Part shown: in pieces, positions 19,177 through 32,386 of the stretch | Numbering within the stretch: position 1 is the stretch's first letter | How the letters are laid out: the number at the start of each line of letters is the position of its first letter | Assembly (NCBI GenBank): GCA_029249225.1 | Contig: JAQWHT010000029.1 | Span: forward strand, 1 to 37,775 | Origin: Flavobacteriaceae bacterium | Lineage (GTDB): Bacteria; Bacteroidota; Bacteroidia; Flavobacteriales; Flavobacteriaceae | DNA: 37,775 nucleotides | Reading direction: 5' to 3' | Made by a program: the position numbers and the translations under genes | Notes under the pieces: generated by a model | Seen by the model: only the letters and a program-made list of their open reading frames with translations | The model's database searches: none | What the model was told of the DNA's origin: nothing

Positions 19177-20092
19177 TATATTTATCAGTTCCATTCCAAT
19201 TGCATATCATCCAATCTATCGCCTTCCATTGCCGGAGAACCACCGTTTCCCAATGGAAAAATATGAGCTACTACCCCAACAACTTATATTAGAAGGTACG
19301 TGTAAAAAAGAGGATTTTTTTGAACCTAATTCCGCTCCAATTGAACAAGTGGAGCGTGTTCATGATCACAACTACGTAAGACGACTTTCGAACTTGGAAT
19401 TGACTAAAAGTGAAGTTCGAAAAATTGGATTTCCACTAAGTAAAGCTTTGGTTAAACGAGAGTTTGTCATAGCAGGTGGAACCTTAATGGGTGCTGAAAA
19501 AGCATTTCAATCAGGGATCGCTATGAATATTGCCGGGGGTACACACCACGCTTTTCGTGATCATGGGGAAGCATTTTGTCTTTTAAACGATCAAGCCATT
19601 GCAGCTCAATATCTTTTAGATAAAAACAGAGCAAGGCAAATTTTAATTTTAGACCTAGATGTTCATCAAGGAAATGGGACCGCTGAGATCTTTAAAAATA
19701 ATGATTCCATTTACACCTGCTCTGTTCATGGTGCAAAAAACTATCCGTTTAGGAAAGAGGAAAGCAATCTTGATCTCCCTATGATGGATCACACAAAAGA
19801 TGAAACCTACTTAAAAAAAATTGAAAAACTCCTTCCAAAATTATTTGATATGATACGGCCTGATTTTATTTTTTACCTCTGTGGAGTCGATATTTTAGCT
19901 ACTGATAAATTGGGGCGACTTGATCTAAGCCTAGAAGGGTGTCGCAAAAGAGATCAGCTGGTTTTTGAAAAATGTCACAAAGAAGGAATTCCTGTACAAT
20001 GCAGTATGGGAGGAGGATATTCCAAGGATATCAACATCATTGTAGAGGCTCACGCGAATACCTACAGAGAAGCGGCTAAATTATACTTCTAA
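19112..20092 (+). CDS. Histone deacetylase / acetoin utilisation family amidohydrolase
   Basis: A zinc-dependent deacetylase-fold protein of the HDAC/AcuC/acetylpolyamine amidohydrolase superfamily. Counting from ATG 19112, H145 and H146 lie in AGGTHHAFRDHGEAFC, D183 and H185 (zinc ligands) in LDLDVHQGNGTAEIF, the third ligand D260 in YLCGVDILATDKLG, and GGGYS follows. Substrate is unknown in these bacteria; protein lysine or small acetylated amides are both possible. ATG 19112 overlaps metG by 65 bp and gives an unusual hydrophobic extension. Family members start about four residues before AYHPIY, which corresponds to ATT 19193 (reading PIAYHPIYRLPLPENHRF afterwards). No standard start codon exists there, so the true start is uncertain. 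The gene ends tail-to-tail with the CBS gene, overlapping by 4 nt. Confidence 0.88.
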   Translation: MVILFLLDQKIKLQSRELLLNNIFISSIPIAYHPIYRLPLPENHRFPMEKYELLPQQLILEGTCKKEDFFEPNSAPIEQVERVHDHNYVRRLSNLELTKSEVRKIGFPLSKALVKREFVIAGGTLMGAEKAFQSGIAMNIAGGTHHAFRDHGEAFCLLNDQAIAAQYLLDKNRARQILILDLDVHQGNGTAEIFKNNDSIYTCSVHGAKNYPFRKEESNLDLPMMDHTKDETYLKKIEKLLPKLFDMIRPDFIFYLCGVDILATDKLGRLDLSLEGCRKRDQLVFEKCHKEGIPVQCSMGGGYSKDINIIVEAHANTYREAAKLYF

Positions 20093-20556
20093 GCACGCCA
20101 AGTCTGACTTTTCATTTCAAGTGCTGCAATAACAATGTCTTTCCGACTAACTTGCCCTACAAGTCGCTTATTGTCCATTACAGGATAACGTCTTCTACTG
20201 CTTTTAGAAAACAAAGCGGCTGCATCAAAAACACTAGTATTGGCATCGATCGTATCAACTTTGTCCGTCATAAAATGGGCTACTGACTTGTCTAAGATAG
20301 GGAGATTAAAATAGCGACTATCAGAAATTTCTTTCATACAGTCTGCCTCTGAAATTACCCCTACTAACTGCCCTGATTCGTCCACCACAGGACCTCCAGA
20401 GATCCTATGCTTGATGAATGCTCTCATAACTTCATGAATAGACTGCTCAGGCGAAAAAATGACGAGCTGGCTGGTCATAATATCGGATACTGTTAATTTG
20501 CTGGGAGTTACCCTGACTTTTTTGGCTCTTTCGCCTTGGAAACTTTTTATTGGCAT
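20089..20556 (-). CDS. CBS-domain pair protein
   Basis: This 155-residue protein consists of two CBS motifs forming one Bateman module. CBS1 spans about residues 22-80 (VSDIMTSQLVIFSPEQSI, RISGGPVVDESGQLVGVISEAD). CBS2 spans about 90-150 (VAHFMTDKVDTIDANTSVFDAA, RRYPVMDNKRLVGQVSRKDIV). CBS pairs bind adenine nucleotides such as AMP or ATP and usually regulate a partner. No catalytic domain is attached and no partner is evident. The start ATG at 20556 gives a short basic lead (MPIKSFQGERAKKVRV). It is divergent from the SDR gene and converges on the HDAC gene with a 4-nt overlap. Confidence 0.9.
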   Translation of the reverse strand: MPIKSFQGERAKKVRVTPSKLTVSDIMTSQLVIFSPEQSIHEVMRAFIKHRISGGPVVDESGQLVGVISEADCMKEISDSRYFNLPILDKSVAHFMTDKVDTIDANTSVFDAAALFSKSSRRRYPVMDNKRLVGQVSRKDIVIAALEMKSQTWRA

Positions 20557-20612
20557 AGCTCTAGGTTTTAAGTCTTTTAAATATACATTTTTTAATTTAA
20601 TTTTAAAAATAG

Positions 20613-20640
20613 TCCTTTAATGACTGCTGCTATTAAAGGA
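20613..20640. repeat. Perfect 9-bp inverted repeat between CBS and SDR genes
   Basis: TCCTTTAAT (20613-20621) and ATTAAAGGA (20632-20640) are perfect complements separated by 10 nt. It sits in the divergent intergenic region, ending 5-7 nt before the possible SDR starts ATG 20646 and GTG 20648. It could be an operator for a dimeric regulator or a 5' hairpin; the sequence does not decide. Confidence 0.6.
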
Positions 20641-20647
20641 AATATAT

Positions 20648-21466
20648 GTGTTATATTGTAAAAAAAACTTGTTGAAACGGTTGGGAATTTTAGGTTGCGG
20701 ATGGCTAGGCACAGAACTAGCTCAGAGAATAAACTCCAAGTCATGGAACGTGAAAGTTACTCGAACTTCTGAAAAAGGAATAATTGCGCTTACCGAAAAA
20801 GGATTCAATAGTTTCCAAATAGAGGTGACAGAAAATTCAATTAAAGGTGACTTAAAATTTTTTGAAAATCTCGACCAATTAATTATTTCTATTCCTCCGA
20901 AGAGGAATGAAGCTAAGGATTACAGTAGAAAAATAAATTACCTAATGAACTTTCTAGAATTAAAAAATAAGTGTAGGGTAATTTTTATTAGTAGTACTTC
21001 CGTCTATGGAAAAAAAGAAGGAGTCTTTGATGAAACTAGTGCTCTATCACCCGAAACGGAATCTTCACGAGAGTTAGTAGAAAGTGAAAAACTAATTTTA
21101 GAATCGGACAGGCCTAGTATAATCCTTCGACTTGGAGGTTTGGTAGGAAAGGATAGAAATCCAATTTTTCAATTACACAAAAAAATAATTCCCAATCCTG
21201 ATGGAATCATTAATTTTGTTGATCAAAAAGATGCAGTGGAAGGTATTTATAAGCTATTAACTACTCCAACAGTTGAAGGTGTTTTCAACTTAGTCAGTCC
21301 ACACCATCCCAAAAGGAGAGACTATTATCTCAAAATGGCAAAAAAGTATAAACTTTCAGTCCCAGTATTTTCTGAACAAAATCCAATCTTGATGCGTCAA
21401 ATTGAGGCTGTGAAAATTCAACAAAAAACAGGTTTCAAATACCAGGTTAATAATTTGTTGATATAA
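20648..21466 (+). CDS. NAD(P)-dependent SDR-family epimerase/dehydratase-like protein (YeeZ-type)
   Basis: This extended short-chain dehydrogenase-like protein has up to 272 residues. The dinucleotide-binding motif is LGILGCGWLGTELAQ, of the GxGxxG kind seen in YeeZ-like proteins. It also has IISIPPKR, IFISSTSVYG (SDR active-site strand, S/Y present as SSTSVYG), and the later LRLGGLVGKDRNP and VDQKDAVEGIYKLL. Substrate is unknown; YeeZ-like proteins lack a firmly known reaction. The start is ambiguous: GTG 20648 is used here, in-frame TTG 20669 or 20672 would place the Rossmann fold nearer the N-terminus as usual, and an out-of-frame ATG at 20646 leads to a stop within nine codons. A run of eight A follows, a spot prone to indel errors. 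It is divergent from the CBS gene. Confidence 0.82.
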   Translation: MLYCKKNLLKRLGILGCGWLGTELAQRINSKSWNVKVTRTSEKGIIALTEKGFNSFQIEVTENSIKGDLKFFENLDQLIISIPPKRNEAKDYSRKINYLMNFLELKNKCRVIFISSTSVYGKKEGVFDETSALSPETESSRELVESEKLILESDRPSIILRLGGLVGKDRNPIFQLHKKIIPNPDGIINFVDQKDAVEGIYKLLTTPTVEGVFNLVSPHHPKRRDYYLKMAKKYKLSVPVFSEQNPILMRQIEAVKIQQKTGFKYQVNNLLI

Positions 21467-21523
21467 ATTCTGTCTTATGCAACCAGCAGTTATGCATTTA
21501 GGTATATTGTTATTGAATAATTT

Positions 21524-22009
21524 ATGTCAAAGCAAAATCAATATATCGCAGTTTTAGAAAAAATTCTAACGCGTATGAAAAACTCAAAACTTGGGTATTT
21601 TAAGGCTTCAGACCATGCGATTAGTTCAGAAAAGAAACGCTTTTTAAATCAACAAGGGCTCCTGAGAAATCGTTTCTTCCAAGATATATTAGGTGAGCTT
21701 CAACGCTTGGGAATGACCTCAGATGACTTAGTGGTCAGCAGATTTAATTTTGATCAATTGTTAATATCTACAATTGACACCCTCAAAGCAACTGCTATTG
21801 AGAAGTGTTTACGTGCTGATCAGGACTTGTTAGAAATGTATCTAGAATTGGAACGATTTGAAGATAGAAATTTGAGTTTATCAAAACATACAGTTCATCT
21901 TGAAGACGCAATTGCTCAAAACCAAGAATGGGTGTCTAATCTGGTTGATAAAAAAGTAGATTCTTATTACTCTACTGTTTCAGGAATCTCTTCAGAGATA
22001 AATTCTTGA
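21524..22009 (+). CDS. DUF2383/PA2169-like four-helix-bundle protein (ferritin-like)
   Basis: This 161-residue all-helical cytosolic protein resembles the DUF2383/PA2169 family. It has an N-terminal helix with LEKILTRMKNSKLGYFKASD, a second helix with NRFFQDILGELQRLG, then ISTIDTLKATAIEKCLRAD and LEMYLELER. The pattern of paired helices ending in (A/G)EL-x-RLG is typical of that ferritin-like bundle, whose role is poorly known and often tied to stress. Some acidic metal-ligand positions are not obvious, so metal binding cannot be claimed. Start ATG 21524 is clean. Its 3' end overlaps the convergent lipoprotein gene by 43 bp (21967-22009). Confidence 0.65.
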   Translation: MSKQNQYIAVLEKILTRMKNSKLGYFKASDHAISSEKKRFLNQQGLLRNRFFQDILGELQRLGMTSDDLVVSRFNFDQLLISTIDTLKATAIEKCLRADQDLLEMYLELERFEDRNLSLSKHTVHLEDAIAQNQEWVSNLVDKKVDSYYSTVSGISSEINS

Positions 22010-22506
22010 TTTTCATTTTCAAGTGCGATCATTCTCAGCACAAAACTGTTGTAATGTTTGTACAACAAATCTAAAGCAGGAACAAGAGAGTCTGATTTGT
22101 AATGTCGAGTAAAGTAACGTGCCTTTGTCACCTGCATTTCTAATACTTTTAATCGGCTTTTGATTTGAGGAATTTCGAGTTTTCTTGGTAATGGATCTGA
22201 ACGTAAGTTCTTTATATAACTTGAGAGTGCAATCAAATCAACCTCTATCCCCTCAAAATTTAATTCTTTTAAGCGTTCCATAGATTGGTGTAGCTTTTTA
22301 AACCCTTCCCATTCTACTAACTCAAAGGCGGCTAAAAACTCCTCTGGATAGGCAATTAAATCAAGCTGAGGCGAATTCAGTGAATCTCGTACGATCAGAG
22401 TTGTATCAGACGAGGTAAAACCTTGCTTGTTTTGTTTACTTTCACAAGAGACAAGTAAAATGAATAGAATAAAAATTATAAAGTTTTGTTTGATCAGCTG
22501 CTCCAT
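21967..22506 (-). CDS. Lipoprotein of unknown function at the end of the carotenoid operon
   Basis: A 179-residue predicted lipoprotein. The signal peptide is hydrophobic (FIIFILFILL) with lipobox LVSC and lipidated C21. No Asp follows the Cys (CESK). The mature part is mostly helical and has a conserved-looking core IPQIKSRLKVLEMQVTKARY followed by FTRHY and YKHYNSFVLRMIALE. I recognise it only as a type of small lipoprotein common in Flavobacteriia, without known function. Its ATG at 22506 directly abuts the TAA of cruF (0 nt spacing), so it is co-transcribed with crtA, crtD and cruF. A membrane-linked or outer-membrane role in pigment placement is possible but is pure inference. It converges on the DUF2383-like gene with a 43-bp overlap. 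Confidence 0.8.
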   Translation of the reverse strand: MEQLIKQNFIIFILFILLVSCESKQNKQGFTSSDTTLIVRDSLNSPQLDLIAYPEEFLAAFELVEWEGFKKLHQSMERLKELNFEGIEVDLIALSSYIKNLRSDPLPRKLEIPQIKSRLKVLEMQVTKARYFTRHYKSDSLVPALDLLYKHYNSFVLRMIALENENQEFISEEIPETVE

Positions 22507-23160
22507 TTAGATCCCAATTGAATTGATTTTAATTAAAAGTATGGTAAAGAATAAAAATTGAAGAATGTAGAGATGAAAAGGATAAGCTCCTTCAACTTTA
22601 ATATTCCATTGATGAAATCCCATTTGAAGTGGAAGTGCTACTAAAGACCAACCAACATAGTTATGAAAAGATGCTACCCCTTCAGCAAATGTCCAGAAAT
22701 CTAAAACTGGTGCAATGGGCTCCATAACTAAATCCAAACTCAACATCAATCCCACACCAACTAGGGATTTGATCCAAAAAGAATCTGTGAAAAATTGAGC
22801 AATACTACCGGTGATAAAAACTAAGATGCACCAGTTAACCCCAATAAGCAAAGGAACCTCCATCAGCTGGACCCCTAAAACTGAGCCGTAGGTATACTCT
22901 CCAAATAGAAACCCATACCGAACCCCTACTATTTCAGCTACCATACCAACGATAAAACATCCCATAATCATGAGTAAGGTTTTCTTATCCAATTTTGTGT
23001 TGATCAAAAGCAAAAAGAAACTAAGCATTAAGTTAACAGGCGTAGCTCCAATAAACCAAGAGGCATCACTGTAGATAATGCCCATAATCCCGGATACATG
23101 AAACAACCAAATAAAAAAAATGGATAAATTTTGTTTTGTAAGAAGCGTATTATCATTCAT
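22507..23160 (-). CDS. cruF: Carotenoid hydratase, CruF-like integral membrane protein
   Basis: This 217-residue protein has about six or seven membrane segments and belongs to the carotenoid biosynthesis (DUF422/CruF) family. Family features seen are the motif GVRYGFLFGEYTYGSVLG with a VPLLIGVNWCILVF segment after it, then MSLDLVMEP-like LSLDLVMEPIAPVLDFW, and FHNYVGWSLVALPLQ. CruF adds water across the 1',2' double bond of linear or gamma-type carotenoids, giving 1'-hydroxy ends. The start codon overlaps the TAA of the crtD-like gene (TAATG, 1-nt overlap), so the two are coupled. The flanking CrtA-like and CrtD-like genes support a role in making a hydroxylated acyclic end group, as in myxol or saproxanthin. 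Confidence 0.87.
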   Translation of the reverse strand: MNDNTLLTKQNLSIFFIWLFHVSGIMGIIYSDASWFIGATPVNLMLSFFLLLINTKLDKKTLLMIMGCFIVGMVAEIVGVRYGFLFGEYTYGSVLGVQLMEVPLLIGVNWCILVFITGSIAQFFTDSFWIKSLVGVGLMLSLDLVMEPIAPVLDFWTFAEGVASFHNYVGWSLVALPLQMGFHQWNIKVEGAYPFHLYILQFLFFTILLIKINSIGI

Positions 23161-24629
23161 TAACTCGCTTTCGGAATCAGTTCGTCAACAATTTTAGCAG
23201 AGAGAAGACACAAAGGAATTCCTCCTCCTGGGTGTACGCTCCCACCACAAAAATAAAGGTTTTTTATACGATTGGAAAAATTTGGGTGGCGTAAAAAAGC
23301 TGCCATTGAACTGTTACTTGATGCACCATAAAGAGCCCCGAGATGTGATTGCGTTTTTTCTTGAATTAAAGGAGGAGTGAGTACCTCTTCACACGCAATT
23401 AGGGGTTCGATTGGTGTGCCTAGCTCTTTTGACAGTCTTGAAATTACAACTTCTCTTAGCTTGTTTACCATAATGTCCCAATCTTGTCCGTGGTCTGCAG
23501 GTGTATTTATCATAACAAACCAGTTTTCACAACCTTCAGGTGCGTCACTAGGCACATCTTTAGAGGTTATATTAATATAAATAGTAGGGTCATCACAAAC
23601 CGTTTGATGTTCAAAAATAGCTTTGAACTCCTTTTGATAATCGTCAGAAAAAAAAATGTTATGCAGATCCAATGCATCAAAAGAATTTTCAATTCCCCAA
23701 TAAAATATAATTGCAGAACTAGACCGTTCTTGGCTTAACGTCCTCTTTGGTGGTTTTAGCTGAGGCAATAATCTTTTGTATGTAGGGTAAATATCCATAT
23801 TTGAAACCACTACATTTGCTTTAAAGAATTCTGACTCAGCACATACCCCTTCGACTCCCTTTGATCCGACTTTAATCTCAGTAACTGGGAAATTAAAACG
23901 GAATTTAACACCTAGATTTAAAGCTAGATCATAAAGCGCCTGTGTAATAGATACCATCCCCTTTGTTGGGACAAAAGTTCCATAGTGACCTTCCAAATGC
24001 TGAATTAAAGTCATTATTCCAGATGTTTGAAATGGGTCAGAACCGTTGTAAGTAGCATAGCGATCAAAAAGTTGAATCAAATGTGGGGAGGAAAAGGTAT
24101 CCTGATTTACTTGATGTAAGCTTTTTGGTAGCTCAAGCACATTAAGATTGACAATCGCTTTTAGTGTCGCTGAAGAAAGATATGTTTTCAATTTATGCAG
24201 TGACTTTTCTAAAAAAAGAGTGTGAGTCAAATCGTATTTTTTTTGCGCCTTTTTTAAGTACTTCTCAACCGTCTCTTTTGGCTCATCAAAAACATTTTGT
24301 ATTTCTTGCATAAATAAATCACGATCAGCGTATGCCTTAAATTTTTTTTGGTCAGACCAAAAGTAATGACACGCAACCTTCTTTCTCTTGAAGTCAAAAT
24401 GCTCTTTGGGGTCCACCCCAGCCATTTCAAAAAGTTGGGTTACAAAATGAGGCATGGTAAACAAGGATGGGCCTGCATCAAATCGATACCCATCAACTTT
24501 GAAAGCAGACAACTTCCCCCCCGGATAACTGTTGGCTTCAAAGACTTCTACGCTATATCCTTTAACTACCAGTCGAATACTAGTGGCTAAACCTGCTATA
24601 CCTGCTCCTATTACTACAGCATGATTCAT
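23160..24629 (-). CDS. crtD: CrtD-like carotenoid 3',4'-desaturase (phytoene desaturase family)
   Basis: This 489-residue FAD-dependent desaturase shows the N-terminal dinucleotide fold AVVIGAGIAGLATSIRLV and EANSYPGGKLSAF. The middle of the family is present (RFDAGPSLFTMPHFV), as is the C-terminal signature LYFCGGSVHPGGGIPLC. It is a paralogue of the crtI product at 27197. The GPSLFTMP version and the operon with cruF and the crtA-like gene point to the CrtD branch, which introduces the 3',4' double bond into 1'-hydroxy carotenoids, rather than to phytoene desaturation. The start ATG at 24629 overlaps the crtA-like stop by 4 nt (ATGA). It acts at the inner membrane on lipid-soluble substrate. 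The exact regiochemistry cannot be read from sequence. Confidence 0.85.
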   Translation of the reverse strand: MNHAVVIGAGIAGLATSIRLVVKGYSVEVFEANSYPGGKLSAFKVDGYRFDAGPSLFTMPHFVTQLFEMAGVDPKEHFDFKRKKVACHYFWSDQKKFKAYADRDLFMQEIQNVFDEPKETVEKYLKKAQKKYDLTHTLFLEKSLHKLKTYLSSATLKAIVNLNVLELPKSLHQVNQDTFSSPHLIQLFDRYATYNGSDPFQTSGIMTLIQHLEGHYGTFVPTKGMVSITQALYDLALNLGVKFRFNFPVTEIKVGSKGVEGVCAESEFFKANVVVSNMDIYPTYKRLLPQLKPPKRTLSQERSSSAIIFYWGIENSFDALDLHNIFFSDDYQKEFKAIFEHQTVCDDPTIYINITSKDVPSDAPEGCENWFVMINTPADHGQDWDIMVNKLREVVISRLSKELGTPIEPLIACEEVLTPPLIQEKTQSHLGALYGASSNSSMAAFLRHPNFSNRIKNLYFCGGSVHPGGGIPLCLLSAKIVDELIPKAS

Positions 24630-25318
24630 GTAATTGATTTGTTGATAGTGTCAGAAACTAGATAAAATCTTGAAAAAAGATCCTCTTTATACCATTTTTT
24701 TTCACGTGTTTCTTTAACAATTTTAGCATGTTGCTTTCCTTTATAAGCGAAGGTATTTACCGCTTCAAAACTATCCCAAATACTCACTGTAGCCTGTTGA
24801 ATGAAAGGCCATTCTCCAATTCCTTTGTAATAAGAAACGCCTTGTGCATTATTAATTGCCTTGCTTGCTGCAGGTACTGCCCTCCAGAAAGAATATAGGC
24901 GATTCCATCGTAACGTAGCTCTTGTTATTACAACTGCTTTATAGTTTTTAGCTTCCTGAGCATCATGATCGACTTGCTGGGTTTTAAATGGGTTTGTACC
25001 ACTCCACTTACCATGACTTTTTACTGCTTTTAAAATTAATTCTCTTTGTGTATCTGACTTCTTTCTATATTCCAGAAAAATAGGATGTTCATCAAGGCAT
25101 TTTTGATAATTTAATTTGTCATCCCAAACACCTAAGAATGCATAGGTTGAAAAATCGGGTCTTAAACTGAATCCCTGACCTCCACCTGTTCCAAGGAACT
25201 TATAAAATTGAAGTCCAGTAACAGACTTCATTTGGAATCCTACAATACCCATTTGCTTGAATGCCCAAAATTTATGTTTTCGGAAAGAGAAAAGAGTTAA
25301 GGTTGTAACTGGAGACAT
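24626..25318 (-). CDS. crtA: CrtA-like carotenoid oxygenase (2-hydroxylase / spheroidene monooxygenase family)
   Basis: A 230-residue protein of the spheroidene monooxygenase family. Recognisable blocks are LTLFSFRKHKFWAFKQMG at the N-terminus, LGTGGGQGFSLRPDFSTYAF and VITRATLRWNRLYSFW, followed by FIQQATVSIWDSFEAVNTFA and KKWYKEDLFSRFYL. In Flavobacterium P99-3 a CrtA-related enzyme acts as a carotenoid 2-hydroxylase in myxol formation, and the present operon context is like that pathway. It is the first gene of a four-gene operon with crtD, cruF and the lipoprotein. Its leader contains a long inverted repeat (25392-25451). Cofactor (haem is reported for CrtA) is from family knowledge only. 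Gene symbol is given by similarity. Confidence 0.85.
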   Translation of the reverse strand: MSPVTTLTLFSFRKHKFWAFKQMGIVGFQMKSVTGLQFYKFLGTGGGQGFSLRPDFSTYAFLGVWDDKLNYQKCLDEHPIFLEYRKKSDTQRELILKAVKSHGKWSGTNPFKTQQVDHDAQEAKNYKAVVITRATLRWNRLYSFWRAVPAASKAINNAQGVSYYKGIGEWPFIQQATVSIWDSFEAVNTFAYKGKQHAKIVKETREKKWYKEDLFSRFYLVSDTINKSIT

Positions 25319-25667
25319 CTTAAAATATATGATAATCTTGAGACTCTAATATAGACGAAATTTTGAGGGAAAATCAGAATAAGAAAAAGAAAAACGTCTC
25401 TGCTTTGGATTTTAGAATTTAACTTATGGAAGTAATCTGGCAGAGACGTTTGAAACCAAATTGAATTTAAACTTGTTTAAAGATATATAAAATAAGTTAC
25501 ACAAAATGAGATTTTAAAGAGTTTTTTTTTTAATTAAACCTACTAAATCCCTCTTTATTCATTAAATTATAATTTATCTATTTGTAATTCAACTAGTTAT
25601 AAATATTGGATTAATTATTTATATAGTAAAAAAGTTTGTATTTTGAATTTTCTTAAAACAGCCAATA
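25319..25667. other. Non-coding divergent interval between crtA-like and K+ channel genes
   Basis: This 349-bp A/T-rich gap separates two divergent genes and has no credible ORF. Its only clear structure is the 12-bp inverted repeat at 25392-25451. No good TAnnTTTG promoter element was found for either gene. Confidence 0.6.
25392..25451. repeat. Perfect 12-bp inverted repeat with 36-nt spacer upstream of the carotenoid operon
   Basis: AAACGTCTCTGC (25392-25403) is the exact reverse complement of GCAGAGACGTTT (25440-25451). On the minus strand the right-hand arm runs into a T-rich stretch (TTTTTCTTTTTCTT), so the hairpin could act as an attenuator or terminator in the leader 74 nt before the crtA-like ATG. 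Alternatively it is a dispersed palindrome. Confidence 0.75.
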
Positions 25668-26360
25668 ATGAAAAAAATTAATCGGTTTGATATGTTTATC
25701 TATGTTTTAATCATAGGAAACATAATTGCAATGGTATTAGAGTCCCATGAATTTATTCAAATTGAATTTTCTAAAGCGTTCTATTATTTTGAACTCATTT
25801 CAATTTTAATTTTTTCATTCGAATACATTTACAGGATAGTGACGAGCTATAAAGAAAATCAATGGGTAGGTGTCAAAAACTATGTCTTTAGTTTTTTTGG
25901 ATTCATAGATTTGATTTCTATACTTCCCTTCTATTTAAAACAATTTGTACTCTTAGACGGTCGTTTTTTCAGAATTCTTCGTTTGTTCAGACTCACTAGA
26001 GTCTTTAAGTTAGGGAGAGATAGTGAGTCTTTAAAATTATTTATAAAAGCACTTTCAGCTGTTAGGAATGAACTTAAATTCACATTATTCCTCTCTGTTT
26101 TAACGATACTTTTTTCTGCCTCAGCCATCTACTTTTTAGAAAATAAAGCTCAACCAGAGGTTTTTTCAAGCATTACTTCTTCTATTTGGTGGGCAACTGT
26201 TTCACTCGCAACTGTAGGTTACGGAGACGTGGTTCCAGTAACTGTGTGGGGTAAAATTTTTGCCTCAATAATTTCATTAGTAGGTATAGGAATAGTTGCA
26301 ATTCCAACAGGGATTATCAGCGCTTCATTTGTTGAAGAAATCCACAATTCTAAAAAGTAA
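25668..26360 (+). CDS. Voltage-gated-type potassium channel
   Basis: A 230-residue six-helix ion channel. The selectivity filter TVGYGD is at 182-187 in ATVSLATVGYGDVVP, marking K+ selectivity. The S4 voltage-sensor-like segment RFFRILRLFRLTRVFKLGR (99-117) has arginines or lysines spaced about every third residue. Other helices are about residues 10-25, 38-58, 72-92, 138-156 and 198-220, the last being the pore-lining helix with GIGIVAIPTGII. It is an inner-membrane tetramer by family. No cytoplasmic TrkA-N/RCK or cyclic-nucleotide domain is attached. Start ATG 25668 is clean. It is divergent from the carotenoid operon and followed 52 bp later by the ThuA-domain gene. Confidence 0.93.
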   Translation: MKKINRFDMFIYVLIIGNIIAMVLESHEFIQIEFSKAFYYFELISILIFSFEYIYRIVTSYKENQWVGVKNYVFSFFGFIDLISILPFYLKQFVLLDGRFFRILRLFRLTRVFKLGRDSESLKLFIKALSAVRNELKFTLFLSVLTILFSASAIYFLENKAQPEVFSSITSSIWWATVSLATVGYGDVVPVTVWGKIFASIISLVGIGIVAIPTGIISASFVEEIHNSKK

Positions 26361-26412
26361 TCCACTTTACTTTTTTTAACTAAATTGCTTCTTGGTAGTA
26401 AAAAATTCATCC

Positions 26413-27135
26413 ATGAAAAAAATAACCCTAGTATCTGTATTACTTTTTTGTATTGTCACATTCTCAACCAAAGCTCAAAGCTCAGTTGAGGGGAAAAATA
26501 TTCTTATTGTTTACGGAGGTTGGCAAGGACATCAGCCTGAGGTGTTTGCAAAAAAAATAGCCTCATGGCTTGAAGAACAAAATGCCAATGTAACACTCTC
26601 ACAGAGCACATCGTCTTACACCGACACTGCCTTAATGGAATCAGTAGATCTAATCATCCAACACATTACGATGAGTAAAATGAAAGGAAGAGAATCTGCG
26701 GGATTAAGAAAGGCAATTGCCAGTGGTGTAGGATTAGCAGGATGTCATGGTGGATTGGGTGACTCCTTTAGAGATGATACTGAATATCAATATATGATTG
26801 GAGGTCAATTTGTAAAACATCCTGGCGGACAGGTTCAATATGGAGTAACTATTTCAGATACCGCGGATCCCATTACCTCAGGTATTGGTGATTTCAAACT
26901 CAAAACAGAACAATATTATATGCACATAGATCCGATGATTGAAATCCTTGCCACCACAAAATTTAGTGGAGAACACGACCCTTGGATAGAAGGAGTAGAA
27001 ATGCCTGTTGTATGGAAAAAAAAATACGGCAAAGGAAAGGTGTTTTACTCTGCGCTGGGGCATTCCGAAGATGTATTTGAAATTCCTGAAGCATGGGCGC
27101 TGATGACTCGAGGAATAGAATGGGCAACAAAATAA
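26413..27135 (+). CDS. Secreted ThuA-domain protein
   Basis: A 240-residue exported protein with a ThuA-like (glutamine-amidotransferase-like fold) domain. The signal peptide is MKKITLVSVLLFCIVTFSTKAQ, so the ATG at 26413 is preferred to an in-frame upstream start at 26392. The mature domain has KNILIVYGGWQGHQPEVFA, the hallmark GLAGCHGGLGDSF, GGQFVKHPGG, and GKGKVFYSALGHSEDVF near the end. ThuA domains occur in sugar (trehalose) utilisation and in many Bacteroidota periplasmic proteins linked to carbohydrate metabolism; the reaction is not firmly known. It lies between a K+ channel gene and crtI, and no sugar-degradation gene is nearby, so no pathway can be assigned from context. Confidence 0.88.
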   Translation: MKKITLVSVLLFCIVTFSTKAQSSVEGKNILIVYGGWQGHQPEVFAKKIASWLEEQNANVTLSQSTSSYTDTALMESVDLIIQHITMSKMKGRESAGLRKAIASGVGLAGCHGGLGDSFRDDTEYQYMIGGQFVKHPGGQVQYGVTISDTADPITSGIGDFKLKTEQYYMHIDPMIEILATTKFSGEHDPWIEGVEMPVVWKKKYGKGKVFYSALGHSEDVFEIPEAWALMTRGIEWATK

Positions 27136-27181
27136 AATCAATCCACTGCTAATAATTTCTTTTTAACCCTTTAATTTGGGT

Positions 27182-27189
27182 TATCTTTG
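27182..27189 (+). promoter_or_regulatory. -7 promoter element of crtI
   Basis: TATCTTTG is a perfect TAnnTTTG. It ends only 7 nt before the crtI ATG at 27197, so transcription should begin at or within a few bases of the start codon. A TTTC at 27156-27159 is the only weak -33 candidate. Confidence 0.55.
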
Positions 27190-27196
27190 TGTTGTT

Positions 27197-28654
27197 ATGA
27201 AAAAGAAAATTGCCATAATTGGCTCGGGCTTTTCTTCGCTCTCAGCCGCTTCTTATTTAGCAAAAGAAAACTTCGAGGTTCATGTTTTTGAAAAAAACAG
27301 CACCCTAGGAGGTAGGGCGAGACAGCTTAAAAAAAACGGCTTTACGTTTGATATGGGTCCCTCTTGGTACTGGATGCCAGATGTCTTTGAATCTTTTTAT
27401 AACGACTTTGGAAAAACTACGAGTGATTTATATGAACTAGAGAGATTAGATCCAGGATATCAAGTGGTCTTTGGTAAAAACGAATCCATCCCAATTGGAG
27501 ACTCATTAGAAAAAATATATGCTGTTTTTGAAAAAGAGGAAACAGGAAGCAGAAAAAAATTAGAGCGTTTTATGTCTTCTGCGAAAGAAAACTATGATAT
27601 CGCAATCAAAGATTTAGTTCATCGGCCAGGAATTTCTCCATTAGAACTTGTTACCCCTGTAACCATTCGTAAAATAAATTACTTTTTAAGTAACATTAAA
27701 AAGGATGTTCAAAAGGAATTTAAGAGTCCTAAGCTTAGACAAATTTTACAATTTCCAGTGCTCTTCCTCGGTGCGAAACCCTCAAACACTCCCTCTTTTT
27801 ACAATTTTATGAATTGGGCAGATTTTGGTTTGGGCACTTGGCATCCCAAAAATGGAATGTATAGTATTGTTGAAGGAATGGTTAGTATTGCAGAATCATT
27901 AGGAGTAAAATTCCATACAGATGCTATTGTTGAAAAAATTCAAGTAGATGATCAGGGTAAGGCTCAGGGAATTGAAGTAAACGGAGAATTCATCAGTGCC
28001 GATGTAGTACTTTCAGGAGCCGACTACCATCATACAGAAACCCTTTTGGATCAAAATTATCGTGCTTACAGTGAGGCCTATTGGGATAAAAAAGTTTTTG
28101 CACCTTCTTCGTTATTATTTTACGTTGGCTTAGACAAAAAAGTAGAACAAGTCTTTCATCACAACCTCTTTTTTGATGTTGATTTCGATCTTCACGCTCA
28201 AGCTATTTACGACACTCCTAAATGGCCAGAAGACCCTCTTTTTTATGCTAATTTCCCATCCGTTTCTGATCCCTCTATGGCTCCTGATGGAAAAGAAGCT
28301 TGTTTTTTATTAATCCCAATTGCACCCGGTATTGAAGACACCCCTGAATTAAGATCTCGTTATTTTGATTTAGTAATGGCTCGTCTAGAAAAACTTACAG
28401 GTCAAGAGTTAACAAAACATATAGAGTTCACAGAATCTTTCTGTGTTAATGACTTTGTAGAAGACTATAATTCTTATAAAGGAAATGCCTACGGTTTGGC
28501 AAACACCTTGCTTCAAACAGCCTTTATGAGGCCCAAGTTGATAAGCAAAAAAGTAACTGGATTATTTTTTACTGGACAACTTACGGTTCCAGGTCCAGGA
28601 GTACCTCCAGCTCTTATATCAGGAAAGTTGGTCGCAGAACTGATCGCTAAATAA
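27197..28654 (+). CDS. crtI: Phytoene desaturase
   Basis: This 485-residue FAD-dependent phytoene desaturase would make lycopene (or neurosporene) from phytoene. The N-terminal fold is KIAIIGSGFSSLSAASYLA, then EKNSTLGGRARQ, and the bacterial CrtI hallmark DMGPSWYWMPDVFE. The C-terminal motif is LFFTGQLTVPGPGVPPALI. ATG 27197 is chosen because it lies just after a promoter element and gives the family N-terminus; an earlier TTG at 27176 overlaps that promoter. In Flavobacteriia crtI is normally followed by crtB (phytoene synthase). Here the next gene is convergent and unrelated, so crtB is not in this window. The divergent crtD/cruF/crtA operon is 1.9 kb away, with two unrelated genes between. 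Confidence 0.93.
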   Translation: MKKKIAIIGSGFSSLSAASYLAKENFEVHVFEKNSTLGGRARQLKKNGFTFDMGPSWYWMPDVFESFYNDFGKTTSDLYELERLDPGYQVVFGKNESIPIGDSLEKIYAVFEKEETGSRKKLERFMSSAKENYDIAIKDLVHRPGISPLELVTPVTIRKINYFLSNIKKDVQKEFKSPKLRQILQFPVLFLGAKPSNTPSFYNFMNWADFGLGTWHPKNGMYSIVEGMVSIAESLGVKFHTDAIVEKIQVDDQGKAQGIEVNGEFISADVVLSGADYHHTETLLDQNYRAYSEAYWDKKVFAPSSLLFYVGLDKKVEQVFHHNLFFDVDFDLHAQAIYDTPKWPEDPLFYANFPSVSDPSMAPDGKEACFLLIPIAPGIEDTPELRSRYFDLVMARLEKLTGQELTKHIEFTESFCVNDFVEDYNSYKGNAYGLANTLLQTAFMRPKLISKKVTGLFFTGQLTVPGPGVPPALISGKLVAELIAK

Positions 28655-28660
28655 GGAGCT

Positions 28661-29584
28661 CTAGTCTTTGGGGTTAATTACCCACCAAATAAATTCATAT
28701 TCGCTCTCTCTAACTGCTATAACAGAATCTAGCATTTCTCCACTCTTAATTAAATCTGTTTTGTATGTATCTAGCTGAGAAAAAACTTGCCACTCCCACA
28801 GGTCTAATCTTTTATATAAAATGTATTTTACAAAATTATCTTTTTGAATATAATCTCTATTCTCTATCCAAAAATCAATGTCATCAATGTCGACCCATGG
28901 CAGATCCCTTACCCAATTATTTGCTATTCGGTCTGTAAATTGGTTTACAAAACGCTCTTCAATTTTTCCAGTATTCTCCATCAAATAACCTAATTCAACT
29001 CCATCATAAATATTGGTCATTTTTAATCCTACTTCTCTTGGCAAAAGTCGAAATGTACCGTCCAATTTAATCGCGTCAAAATTTACTCTTGGAGGATTAA
29101 AAGGATTTCTATTACCAAACATAGCCATGGGGGGAATATAATCTTCAACGTCTTCAATATATTGAACAAATACGCTATCCAGATCCTCATCCCATCTTAA
29201 GTATTGTTCATTAAAAATATCCCTAACCCATTTCAAGTTCTCTGTATACTCATCGGTATAAACTATTATTGAATCTACTTCTTGTCTTAAATTATTCAAA
29301 TTTTCAATCCCATCTTCTCGATTTTCAGACACTCCTCCTTGTTGCTCAATTCCAAAAGAAACTGTTACCCCAAATACTAGAATAATAAACTCTACTATAG
29401 ATTTTTTAACTCGGTCCCAAAAATCTTTAATATCAAATCGGTCACCTAAAGTAATCAGTCTTAAAAACCAATTTAACTTTTCTTTTTCAATACCGGCAGA
29501 CTTACTGGCCTCAGCATATTCTTCTCTAGAGATATACCCGTCCTTATTTTTGTCAATTTTATCAAAATCGTTTTTTTTACTCAT
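28661..29584 (-). CDS. EF-hand membrane protein, DUF6090-like
   Basis: A 307-residue protein. It opens with one canonical EF-hand calcium loop, DKNKDGYISREE at residues 11-22 with ligands D11, N13, D15, S19 and E22. A membrane helix of about residues 62-79 follows (SIVEFIILVFGVTVSFGI). The C-terminal 225 residues form a helical, acidic, aromatic-rich domain (NLNNLRQEVDSIIVYTDEY, ..WVDIDDIDFWIENRDYI). The helix followed by a long helical domain resembles the DUF6090 type found in many Bacteroidota, though the N-terminal EF-hand is unusual for it. A single EF-hand more often pairs with another, so dimerisation is possible. Function unknown. The gene is tail-to-tail with crtI, 6 bp between stops. 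Confidence 0.68.
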   Translation of the reverse strand: MSKKNDFDKIDKNKDGYISREEYAEASKSAGIEKEKLNWFLRLITLGDRFDIKDFWDRVKKSIVEFIILVFGVTVSFGIEQQGGVSENREDGIENLNNLRQEVDSIIVYTDEYTENLKWVRDIFNEQYLRWDEDLDSVFVQYIEDVEDYIPPMAMFGNRNPFNPPRVNFDAIKLDGTFRLLPREVGLKMTNIYDGVELGYLMENTGKIEERFVNQFTDRIANNWVRDLPWVDIDDIDFWIENRDYIQKDNFVKYILYKRLDLWEWQVFSQLDTYKTDLIKSGEMLDSVIAVRESEYEFIWWVINPKD

Positions 29585-29656
29585 AAAAAAATAGTCGAAG
29601 AAAACTTATAGCTAATTTAAATAAAAATGACTGAATTTATACACAATCAACCTCCT

Positions 29657-32386
29657 TTAACCTTTGATCGGAATTTGTTCAAACGGTTTTTGGACATTAA
29701 ATATTTCGATTAACAATTTGAAAAGTACATTTTCAAAACAATTTAAATCCATTGAGTCAATTAAAAGGGGTTGCTTATTTCTTTCCTTTTTTTGATGAAC
29801 TCCTAAAAAGGTATTATCAAAGTTTTTAAGTGGAATTACTCCTGCATTAATGGTAGTAGTAGTAAAATTATTTTTTAAAGCATACGCATAAAGCATTACC
29901 TGAAAGAGGGCTCCTTTATTAGGAACTGTTATCAGCTCTTCCCAGCTATCAAAACTCATATCCGATGAAGTTATATTTCCAGTTTTATAATCAACAATAC
30001 GAGTGACCCCATTTAAAGTGTCAATTCGATCTACTGTTCCTTTCAGGAAAATTTTTTGATTTAATTCAGGAACAAAAACAGCCTCATAAAATTGACTCTC
30101 TAGTGTCTTAATCACCAGTGTATTACCCTTTTTAATAAAATCTCTTTCTTTTTCTAAAAATTCCTTAATCACACGTGTTGTTACCTCAAAAATCAGGTAG
30201 TTTTTCCCTACATAAAGTGATTCTCTATGCTCTTGCTTTTTAAAACTTGAATCTACTATTTTGGGAAGTATTTTTAACATCCCCTCATAGTCCTTTTCTG
30301 TTAAAATTTGGTCTATGTAGGGTTGATATAAACGCTCTAAAACTTCATGAATCAGGGTTCCTTTTTCAGCTGCATTGATTTCCATTTCAAATGTGTCATC
30401 TGGTTCAATTTTTAAAAGTCGTTGCTCATAAAAAAGATAAGGATCACGAATATATTGTACGAGTGAAGAGGGGGAAAACCCTTGAATACCAACTTCTTTC
30501 AATTGACGAATAACTGCAGAGGTTTTAATCGCTTTTTTTAAATCTTTTTTTTGGGCTTCCAGTTGAGAGCTTAAATATTTGAACCTGAGTTTGTGATTTG
30601 GTCTTTTAAAATACTCTAGCTGAATCAAGAATCGACTCTTTTCAGCAGAAAAGAGTCCTTCAGCTGACTCATTATAGATCAAACTTATTCTTTTTGCACG
30701 TTGTAATAGCCTAAAAAAGTGATATGCATAAAGATGATCTTGTTCAATGAAGGTATTCAATCCATACTTTTTTCGCACGTCAAAAGGAATCCATGAGAAA
30801 GGTGTTTTGCCTAATGGTAAAATCCCCTCATTTAGATGAGTCACTATAACATGATCAAAATCTAAAACACGCGTTTCTAATACACCCATTATCTGAATAC
30901 CAGCAAAAGGATCACCAGAAAAATCTAAGGTCTCTTTATCTAACAGCTTTAAAAATACCAACTCAATATCTTGAAGTTTTCTTAATTCAGGATTGGAAAG
31001 TGATAATGTCAGTGCTTTATTCCACAGCTTACTTATTTTTGTTAAACAGTGGATTTCGAGAGTAGAAGAGTTTTTTAAAATTAAATGATCTTTTATCATT
31101 TCAGAAAGCCTTAGCATCCTTTCTAAAAAAAGAACGGGTGTTTCAAAAGGACTAAATATAAGGTCTCCTGCACTAGATTTTCCTAAGACTAGGTTATTAC
31201 TTAAACTTGAGCTTCGAAGAGCCTGCTGCCGCTTGACAATTTTTTTAATTGGAAGTCCTGAAGTTTCTATGAATGATAAAACGTCATTGTTTTCAAGTAA
31301 TGAGTTTACAGTTGAAAGAGAAAAACTTCCCTCTGTATCTGTTTTTAATAGCTCAAAGAGTTTTACAAAAAACGTAACTATCCCAAAATTTTTAAAAGGA
31401 TACCCCATTGACACATTCCAGGGAACCTCTGTTGAAGTGATGTAAGTCAACACAGGATGCAAGAGTCCCTCATCTCCTAATACAAGTACAATGGAATCGT
31501 TTGGGAACTCTCTATAGGTCTCAACGGCAAGTTGAGCAGCAGCCTTAGCCTGTAAGAGGTTTTTACTGACATTTATTATCTCAATTTTTTTGTTTTTCGA
31601 AAAGAAATTGGAAAATTGAGAAGTGAACTCTTGTTTTAAAAAAGCCCATTCTTTGATATAATTTTTAATAAAATAACTTGTGCTATGAGACGGTTCTTCA
31701 TAAAAGTATTGGTCTAAGTCCCATAAAACAGTAGCCTTTTCCTCAGCAATTAATTCTTGAATGATAACTTCCTCGGCTTTGGTTAGAGCGTTAAATCCTA
31801 TGAAATAATGGAAAGGAAGTGAAGGTTGTATATAGTGCCCAAGGTTTTGGGTTGCCTCTCGGTATTGAAGACCAGAATAGCCGAGTTGTTGACTCTGAAG
31901 TACTTTATATAATTTATTATAATAGATCGGAACCCTTTCTTGAAATTTAAAAAACTGCTTGCTTAAATCACCCATTTTTTTAGGTTCCCACTGCTCGATT
32001 TGTTCAACTGCACCCATAAAACTGAAAATAGAATTGGCATCAACTAACTGAACATCTATCTCATTGAACTCTTGAAGAAGAGCTGGTGCCCAATTTAAAA
32101 ATTGATTTAAGGGATTTTGCTCTTTCTCAGGGGTATGCTCCTGATAGACTTTATAAAATATAAAAAGAAGATCAAGATTTGAAACTTTATTAATTGCTGA
32201 AAGTTCATTAATAAATTGTTCGATACTAACTATTTTTGGAGCTAAAGTGGGTCCTGATATTTCATTCTCCAGTGCTTTTTTTAAAAATTTGATCGCTCTT
32301 ATGCTAGGAACAACAATCTTGACCTGACTCAGATCTTGATTTGAGTCAATTATTTTTTTCGCTATGTCAGTTAAAAAAGTTTGCAT
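29657..32386 (-). CDS. AddB-like PD-(D/E)XK nuclease subunit
   Basis: This 909-residue protein is the second subunit of an AddAB-type DNA end-processing enzyme. The N-terminus (IVVPSIRAIKFLKKAL) is the inactivated helicase-like part typical of the family. HDHVIVTHLNEGILPLG-like text (DFDHVIVTHLNEGILPLGKT) marks a later helicase-like motif. The C-terminal RecB-type nuclease has GTLIHEVLERLY near 680, then TRIVDYKTGN near 790 (D and K of the active site) and FQVMLYAYALK. In the stretch SLVQYIRDPYLFYEQ the position that is a cysteine in iron-sulphur AddB proteins is aspartate, so a cluster is not expected. It begins 52 bp after the addA-like gene and is surely co-transcribed with it. Symbol withheld because the family in this phylum is annotated only generically. 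Confidence 0.85.
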   Translation of the reverse strand: MQTFLTDIAKKIIDSNQDLSQVKIVVPSIRAIKFLKKALENEISGPTLAPKIVSIEQFINELSAINKVSNLDLLFIFYKVYQEHTPEKEQNPLNQFLNWAPALLQEFNEIDVQLVDANSIFSFMGAVEQIEQWEPKKMGDLSKQFFKFQERVPIYYNKLYKVLQSQQLGYSGLQYREATQNLGHYIQPSLPFHYFIGFNALTKAEEVIIQELIAEEKATVLWDLDQYFYEEPSHSTSYFIKNYIKEWAFLKQEFTSQFSNFFSKNKKIEIINVSKNLLQAKAAAQLAVETYREFPNDSIVLVLGDEGLLHPVLTYITSTEVPWNVSMGYPFKNFGIVTFFVKLFELLKTDTEGSFSLSTVNSLLENNDVLSFIETSGLPIKKIVKRQQALRSSSLSNNLVLGKSSAGDLIFSPFETPVLFLERMLRLSEMIKDHLILKNSSTLEIHCLTKISKLWNKALTLSLSNPELRKLQDIELVFLKLLDKETLDFSGDPFAGIQIMGVLETRVLDFDHVIVTHLNEGILPLGKTPFSWIPFDVRKKYGLNTFIEQDHLYAYHFFRLLQRAKRISLIYNESAEGLFSAEKSRFLIQLEYFKRPNHKLRFKYLSSQLEAQKKDLKKAIKTSAVIRQLKEVGIQGFSPSSLVQYIRDPYLFYEQRLLKIEPDDTFEMEINAAEKGTLIHEVLERLYQPYIDQILTEKDYEGMLKILPKIVDSSFKKQEHRESLYVGKNYLIFEVTTRVIKEFLEKERDFIKKGNTLVIKTLESQFYEAVFVPELNQKIFLKGTVDRIDTLNGVTRIVDYKTGNITSSDMSFDSWEELITVPNKGALFQVMLYAYALKNNFTTTTINAGVIPLKNFDNTFLGVHQKKERNKQPLLIDSMDLNCFENVLFKLLIEIFNVQKPFEQIPIKG

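Follow-up and report, generated by a model that had tools for sequence, protein, structure and literature searches.

We analysed a window of 37,775 nucleotides (nt) of Flavobacteriaceae bacterium DNA (assembly GCA_029249225.1, contig JAQWHT010000029.1, positions 1 to 37,775), in which a crtA-like gene, crtD, and cruF run directly into a gene for a predicted lipoprotein. It is likely that the three enzyme genes form the psi-end branch of the myxol pathway and that they lie, through a lineage-specific arrangement, beside an older lipoprotein with a general role in the cell envelope. An initial annotation of this DNA had suggested that the lipoprotein could help to move or anchor polar carotenoids in the outer membrane, to be checked by whether it stays with cruF across genomes. 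Wider sampling gave this role no support. As in the case that the annotation had itself named as refuting it, the lipoprotein is mostly found without carotenoid genes outside the genus, with 33 of the 39 genomes encoding a full-length member having no cruF, the other six having the two genes far apart, and none of the 34 lipoprotein loci retrieved containing a crt gene.

The lipoprotein family and cruF outside the genus

Two lipoprotein profiles were used, A1 (built from 29 genus members) and A2 (mixed), together with samples of 395 genomes from the order and 395 from the phylum. A1 detected the family in at least 20 of the order genomes (E <= 0.001), a count that takes in the genome of the window itself and a weak match from another family. 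A2 matched at least 110 of the same 395, many of these matches spanning the signal-peptide region only; those that are full-length or nearly so (E <= 7.4e-10) come from at least 40 genomes, all in the window's family, Flavobacteriaceae. That family also accounts for all of the genomes, at least 21 of 395, with matches at E <= 1e-6 in the phylum sample. By comparison, cruF (PF04240) is present in 105 of the 395 order genomes, 10 inside the window's family and 95 outside, and in 98 of the 105 no full-length lipoprotein member was detected among the best eight candidates per genome. Both genes occur in at least seven order genomes (G000, G075, G174, G237, G382, G390, and G418). Leaving aside the window's own genome (G000), they are on different contigs in five and about 1.1 Mb apart in the sixth (G174).

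We fetched 34 lipoprotein loci from outside the genus (L052–L065 and L136–L155; 10.5–13 kb each), representing 33 of the 39 genomes with full-length members plus G378; genomes G092, G252, G262, G370, G402, and G412 were not fetched in full. Searches with crtA, crtD, cruF, and crtI (tblastn, E <= 1e-8) found none of them in any of these loci. Instead, 31 of the 34 have the lipoprotein gene in divergent orientation to an epimerase-family SDR gene (PF01370), 47–305 nt away, and the window's own sdr and/or cbs neighbour is present in 22. The lipoproteins beside the epimerase-family SDR belong by profile to the same family as the window's protein and have the lipobox cysteine, but their loci, unlike the window, contain no crt genes. 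A search of the window's own genome (~90% complete) for the epimerase-family gene was negative; it had no positive control, but its query does match the 31 loci just mentioned. In the outside loci, the lipoprotein gene frequently has a SnoaL-like gene in its vicinity (L056, L057, L061, L137, and others); in L056, L057, and L061 this gene follows it immediately, in the same orientation and overlapping it slightly, and the lipoprotein therefore has other operon partners outside the genus.

Viewed from the side of cruF, the picture is similar. The lipoprotein profile matched no open reading frame (ORF) in 20 cruF loci chosen from 104 outside the genus. Adjacency of the lipoprotein to carotenoid genes was found in none of the 34 lipoprotein loci and none of the 20 cruF loci. 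The gene that follows cruF on the same strand in these 20, as judged by eye from N-termini, is cyclase- or CrtZ-like in 14 and crtA-like in one.

A lineage-specific rearrangement probably placed the carotenoid genes beside the older lipoprotein. The lipoprotein would have held its neighbourhood first, with crtA-crtD-cruF coming beside it later (the gene orders are observed; the direction of the change we infer). Its older, general role in the envelope, that of a helical bundle anchored by lipid, would have been kept, and its position would make it co-expressed with the operon.

Sequence and predicted fold of the lipoprotein

The signal peptide of the lipoprotein terminates in LVSC, which we take to be a lipobox, and Cys21 is invariant in all 29 aligned genus members. 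The signal peptide with its lipobox cysteine points to a bacterial lipoprotein, which would be lipidated and may lie in the outer membrane. The protein has no match in Pfam at E <= 1, none near a cut-off in NCBIfam, and nothing useful among Protein Data Bank (PDB) sequences (best E 0.02).

AlphaFold predicts a helical bundle over about residues 55–170. Foldseek returned no match to this model at E <= 0.001, and VIA-align returned generic helical bundles among solved structures, such as cytochrome b562 and the designed ABLE proteins; no function is therefore read from the fold. These four-helix bundles have the same bundle arrangement (Z 10–11 over about 95–108 residues) but share only ~10% identity with the lipoprotein. 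Helical bundles commonly reach scores of this size, and we claim no relation to either. Heme binding, which the cytochrome b562 match had prompted us to consider, was dropped since the lipoprotein family has no invariant histidine.

Conservation within the genus and alternative explanations

A single-sequence search of genome contigs found no relative of the lipoprotein; an alignment query of these contigs returned 32 loci, all of the same genus, two of them labelled Flavobacteria bacterium MS024-2A. These labels make MS024-2A, which belongs to the NS5 marine group (PMC9122927, available portion), the probable genus of the window. The lipoprotein is encoded in 34 of 37 genus genomes, as is cruF (the window's own and 33 of 36 others), and the two genes are adjacent in all 34 genomes that hold either (30 by fetched loci, in 31 rows, and G004, G010, G018, and G028 by match coordinates). 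The same three genomes lack both (G011, G022, and G027; 54–75% complete). We rejected this co-loss as evidence: the sdr neighbour is missing too, and the whole block is thus absent, making these genomes uninformative.

Across 30 of the 31 locus rows, the gap between cruF and the lipoprotein gene ranges from -4 to +23 nt. Two of the rows, L001 and L002, represent one place; cruF of L013 is interrupted by an in-frame stop; and in L006, L014, and L020, where we found no ATG, the gap was measured to the first codon kept of the frame. As far as the loci reach, gene order in the genus is metRS-hdac-cbs-sdr-DUF2383-lipoprotein-cruF-crtD-crtA-ion channel-thuA-crtI, with the ion channel not detected in L176 and L179. 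Because this whole metRS-to-crtI block is conserved, linkage inside the genus says little about function. Evolutionary rates were compared after removal of the trend common to five unrelated neighbours, for the 23 of 33 species with all 11 genes. The rate of the lipoprotein covaries with those of cruF (0.26) and crtD (0.24) no more than with those of DUF2383 (0.24) and metRS (0.26), the value for crtA being -0.15; there is no specific signal.

An alternative, which we think improbable, is a recruitment of the lipoprotein to the handling of polar carotenoids within this genus, its outer-membrane-anchored bundle binding or shuttling myxol and its coupling to cruF setting its amount. The predicted lipid anchor and bundle would suit such a role, as would the conserved junction and its narrow range of gaps, and this tight junction has outlasted large divergence. 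However, the family mostly occurs without cruF outside the genus, its loci there are not near crt genes, the entire surrounding block is conserved within the genus, and the rate covariation is not specific. Moreover, a seven-gene cluster of Nonlabens spongiae together with crtE sufficed for myxol production in Escherichia coli (PMC11855829, available portion). Less probable still is that the genus lipoprotein is unrelated to those outside and came with the carotenoid genes, the matches reflecting signal peptides and helices: identity to outside members is only 13–22% and many weak A2 matches cover the signal peptide alone, but full-length matches reach E 8e-54 with A2 and E 3e-15 with A1, a comparison of the profile of genus members with that of outside members gives a probability of 99.1 (E 2e-18 over 141 columns), and sdr and/or cbs neighbours are held in common with outside loci.

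Several points weigh against an older lipoprotein with a general envelope role. Retention of the junction in all 34 genomes, even though the lipoprotein gene changes fastest among the 11 compared, could reflect a useful coupling, and the genus form has a conserved segment of its own. The presence counts are lower bounds, with the best eight candidates per genome scored, and the G378 member seen with A1 was missed in the A2 search. Because it was the genus profile that retrieved the outside members, the profile comparison is not independent of that search. Finally, the evidence for an envelope role, namely the family distribution and the predicted fold, is indirect. On that evidence, a general envelope role, rather than one in pigmentation, is nonetheless the most likely.

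Operon structure and predicted pigment

The four genes are co-directional on the minus strand (Table 1), with junctions of -4 (crtA-like/crtD overlap), -1 (crtD/cruF overlap), and 0 nt (cruF-lipoprotein), exactly as in the initial annotation. Judging from this spacing, the lipoprotein is probably co-transcribed with, and translationally coupled to, cruF. A convergent DUF2383-like gene overlaps the 3' end of the lipoprotein gene, tail to tail, by 43 nt (21967-22009).

Table 1. Coordinates of the features discussed, numbered along the window, and the basis of each assignment.
Feature	Position	Strand	Basis
crtA-like gene, probably carotenoid 2'-hydroxylase (CrtA-OH type)	24626..25318	-	NF045923 192.9 bits, cut-off 300
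crtD, 1-hydroxycarotenoid 3,4-desaturase	23160..24629	-	NF042421 704.8 bits, cut-off 500
cruF, carotenoid 1,2-hydratase	22507..23160	-	PF04240 77 bits, cut-off 25
lipoprotein, Flavobacteriaceae family, predicted helical bundle	21967..22506	-	LVSC lipobox; family distribution; model mean pLDDT 79.6 (whole chain)
RNA-like element, 102 nt, two stem-loops and U-run, upstream of crtA	25384..25485	-	covariance model R1, pair counts, folding, promoter-like 5' edge
possible -7 box of crtA, TATATTAG	25346..25353	-	TAHHTTNG match, spacer survey

CrtD exceeds the curated cut-off of its model. CruF exceeds that of Pfam and falls below those of the NCBIfam CruF models, which come from other groups. The CrtA-like protein is matched best, among named models, by spheroidene monooxygenase (NF045923), at a score below the cut-off. 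By analogy with characterised relatives, CruF would hydrate C1',2', CrtD would desaturate C3',4', and the CrtA-like enzyme would hydroxylate C2', making crtA-crtD-cruF the psi-end branch of the ordinary flavobacterial myxol pathway. The enzyme set read by the initial annotation, and the 1'-hydroxy, 2'-hydroxy, 3',4'-didehydro end that it predicted, are supported by the matching N. spongiae genes, which make myxol (PMC11855829, available portion). A myxol-type pigment is a reasonable prediction, and the pathway is already known, because the corresponding N. spongiae enzymes produced myxol in E. coli; the available portion of that paper mentions no lipoprotein in the gene set.

The hydroxylase role of the CrtA-like enzyme is probable in light of this N. 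spongiae relative. There is a small chance that the enzyme is a ketolase of the spheroidene monooxygenase type, which would give a 2'-ketone in place of the end group of myxol. That model is the best named one for the protein, but the score lies under its cut-off, and the tested flavobacterial relative from N. spongiae hydroxylates (PMC11855829, available portion).

Candidates for all of crtE, crtB, crtI, crtY, and crtZ are present in the window's own genome. In the window, crtI (27176-28654) passes NF058655, the model for bifunctional phytoene desaturase/3,4-desaturase (711.4 bits; cut-off 640), and its role may overlap with that of CrtD. The minus-strand frame downstream of it (28661-29584) encodes a protein whose N-terminal part has an EF-hand-like motif scoring at, or slightly under, the Pfam cut-offs. 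A lycopene cyclase candidate (PF05834 above cut-off) lies beside a gene resembling geranylgeranyl diphosphate (GGPP) synthase on contig C33, and a phytoene-synthase-like gene (PF00494 above cut-off) adjoins one for a 147-amino-acid FA_hydroxylase on contig C18. The cyclase, phytoene synthase, and GGPP synthase candidates pass Pfam or family searches and fall below NCBIfam equivalog cut-offs. We take the FA_hydroxylase beside the crtB candidate as a candidate CrtZ; it has no NCBIfam match and is the one of five PF04116 matches above cut-off in the genome that is next to that gene. Upstream of the phytoene-synthase-like gene, an ORF (L203:4269-4952, minus strand, C18) encodes a B12-binding domain (PF02607) and matches CarH weakly (34 bits; cut-off 400). 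Carotenoid genes may accordingly be under a regulator of the B12/light type.

The N. spongiae myxol cluster comprises genes of the CruF, CrtD, CrtA-OH, CrtI, CrtB, CrtY, and CrtZ types, with crtE located elsewhere (PMC11855829, available portion); the window's genome has these types or candidates for them, its CrtA-like enzyme being a probable CrtA-OH, and likewise has its crtE candidate elsewhere. In N. spongiae, however, the seven genes form one cluster in which crtA-OH is reversed and, in the same portion, no lipoprotein is mentioned, whereas in the window's genome crtA-crtD-cruF are co-directional with the lipoprotein and the crtB/crtZ and crtE/crtY candidates are on other contigs. The flexixanthin genes of Algoriphagus sp. 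oki45 similarly include cruF and crtD with crtI, crtB, crtYcd, and crtZ, but have crtW and crtG instead of a crtA-like gene, and the available portion of PMC10784355 mentions no lipoprotein. Among the literature titles listed (ten of 62), nothing was on point for carotenoids, lipoproteins, the outer membrane, and cruF in Bacteroidetes, and a search for MS024-2A with carotenoids came back empty.

An RNA-like element upstream of crtA

Between the ion-channel gene and crtA lies an element (mean column identity 89% over 21 aligned loci) with two stem-loops, the second consisting of an 11-pair stem and a long loop followed by a terminator-like U-run. A covariance model of it, R1, matches 27 of 33 genus sources, or 27 of the 31 testable ones (L173 and L187 do not contain the region); 21 of the 27 matched loci built the model, and L165, L180, and L189 (E 0.081) match weakly. 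R1 has no match in genus loci L174, L183, L185, and L192, nor, at E <= 1, in any of 54 loci from outside the genus. In the window's own genome (2.09 Mb, of which 1.04 Mb was searched), no further copy scored below E 2.

Folding of four single element sequences gave z-scores from -3.2 to -4.3. Across 26 distinct rows, 96.6% of cells pair, and six pairs, all in the second stem, are changed on both sides, in one cell each, a count reached by none of 500 shuffles (slid controls 0–4); the alignment was made to fit the structure, and double changes are absent from the first stem. RNAalifold, applied to the 23 closest loci, found one pair changed on both sides. Covariation support for the structure is therefore thin. 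A first pair count was discarded because it held four reverse-strand matches of the palindromic stem.

The 5' edge of the element reads TTTG-N16-TATCTTTA, with a spacing of 16 in 22 of 24 sequences (TTTG variants were also accepted; L166 has another distance and L181 is cut off), and resembles the Bacteroidetes -33/-7 promoter consensus (PMC6847099, available portion). In addition, 15 of 24 spacers have a TAHHTTNG box 34–42 nt ahead of crtA, against 2.3 expected from mononucleotide shuffles. Such a promoter-like layout fits a separate small RNA better than a leader. We tentatively suggest, well short of an even chance, that the element is a structured RNA controlling the myxol branch, either as a terminating leader or as an adjacent small RNA, with the lipoprotein in the governed unit. 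A pair of DNA operator sites, instead of an RNA, is also possible.

Rfam 15 has no match at E <= 1 in window positions 19500-29700, nor at the element in L190, L180, and L189, with one chance-level match elsewhere in L190. The titles listed in our literature search (ten of 42) contained nothing on point for a small RNA or riboswitch of carotenoid genes in Flavobacteriia. The element is newly recorded here, its absence from print extending to Rfam and those titles.

Implications

The enzymes are of known kinds, and the lipoprotein link is a lineage-specific arrangement. This removes a misleading connection: gene order in a single genus hinted at a carotenoid lipoprotein, and wider sampling points to a neighbour with a separate history. 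A myxol gene order is recorded for a marine clade known mostly from metagenome-assembled genomes and single cells. The RNA-like element merits separate study and could show how such small genomes control their end-group pigments.

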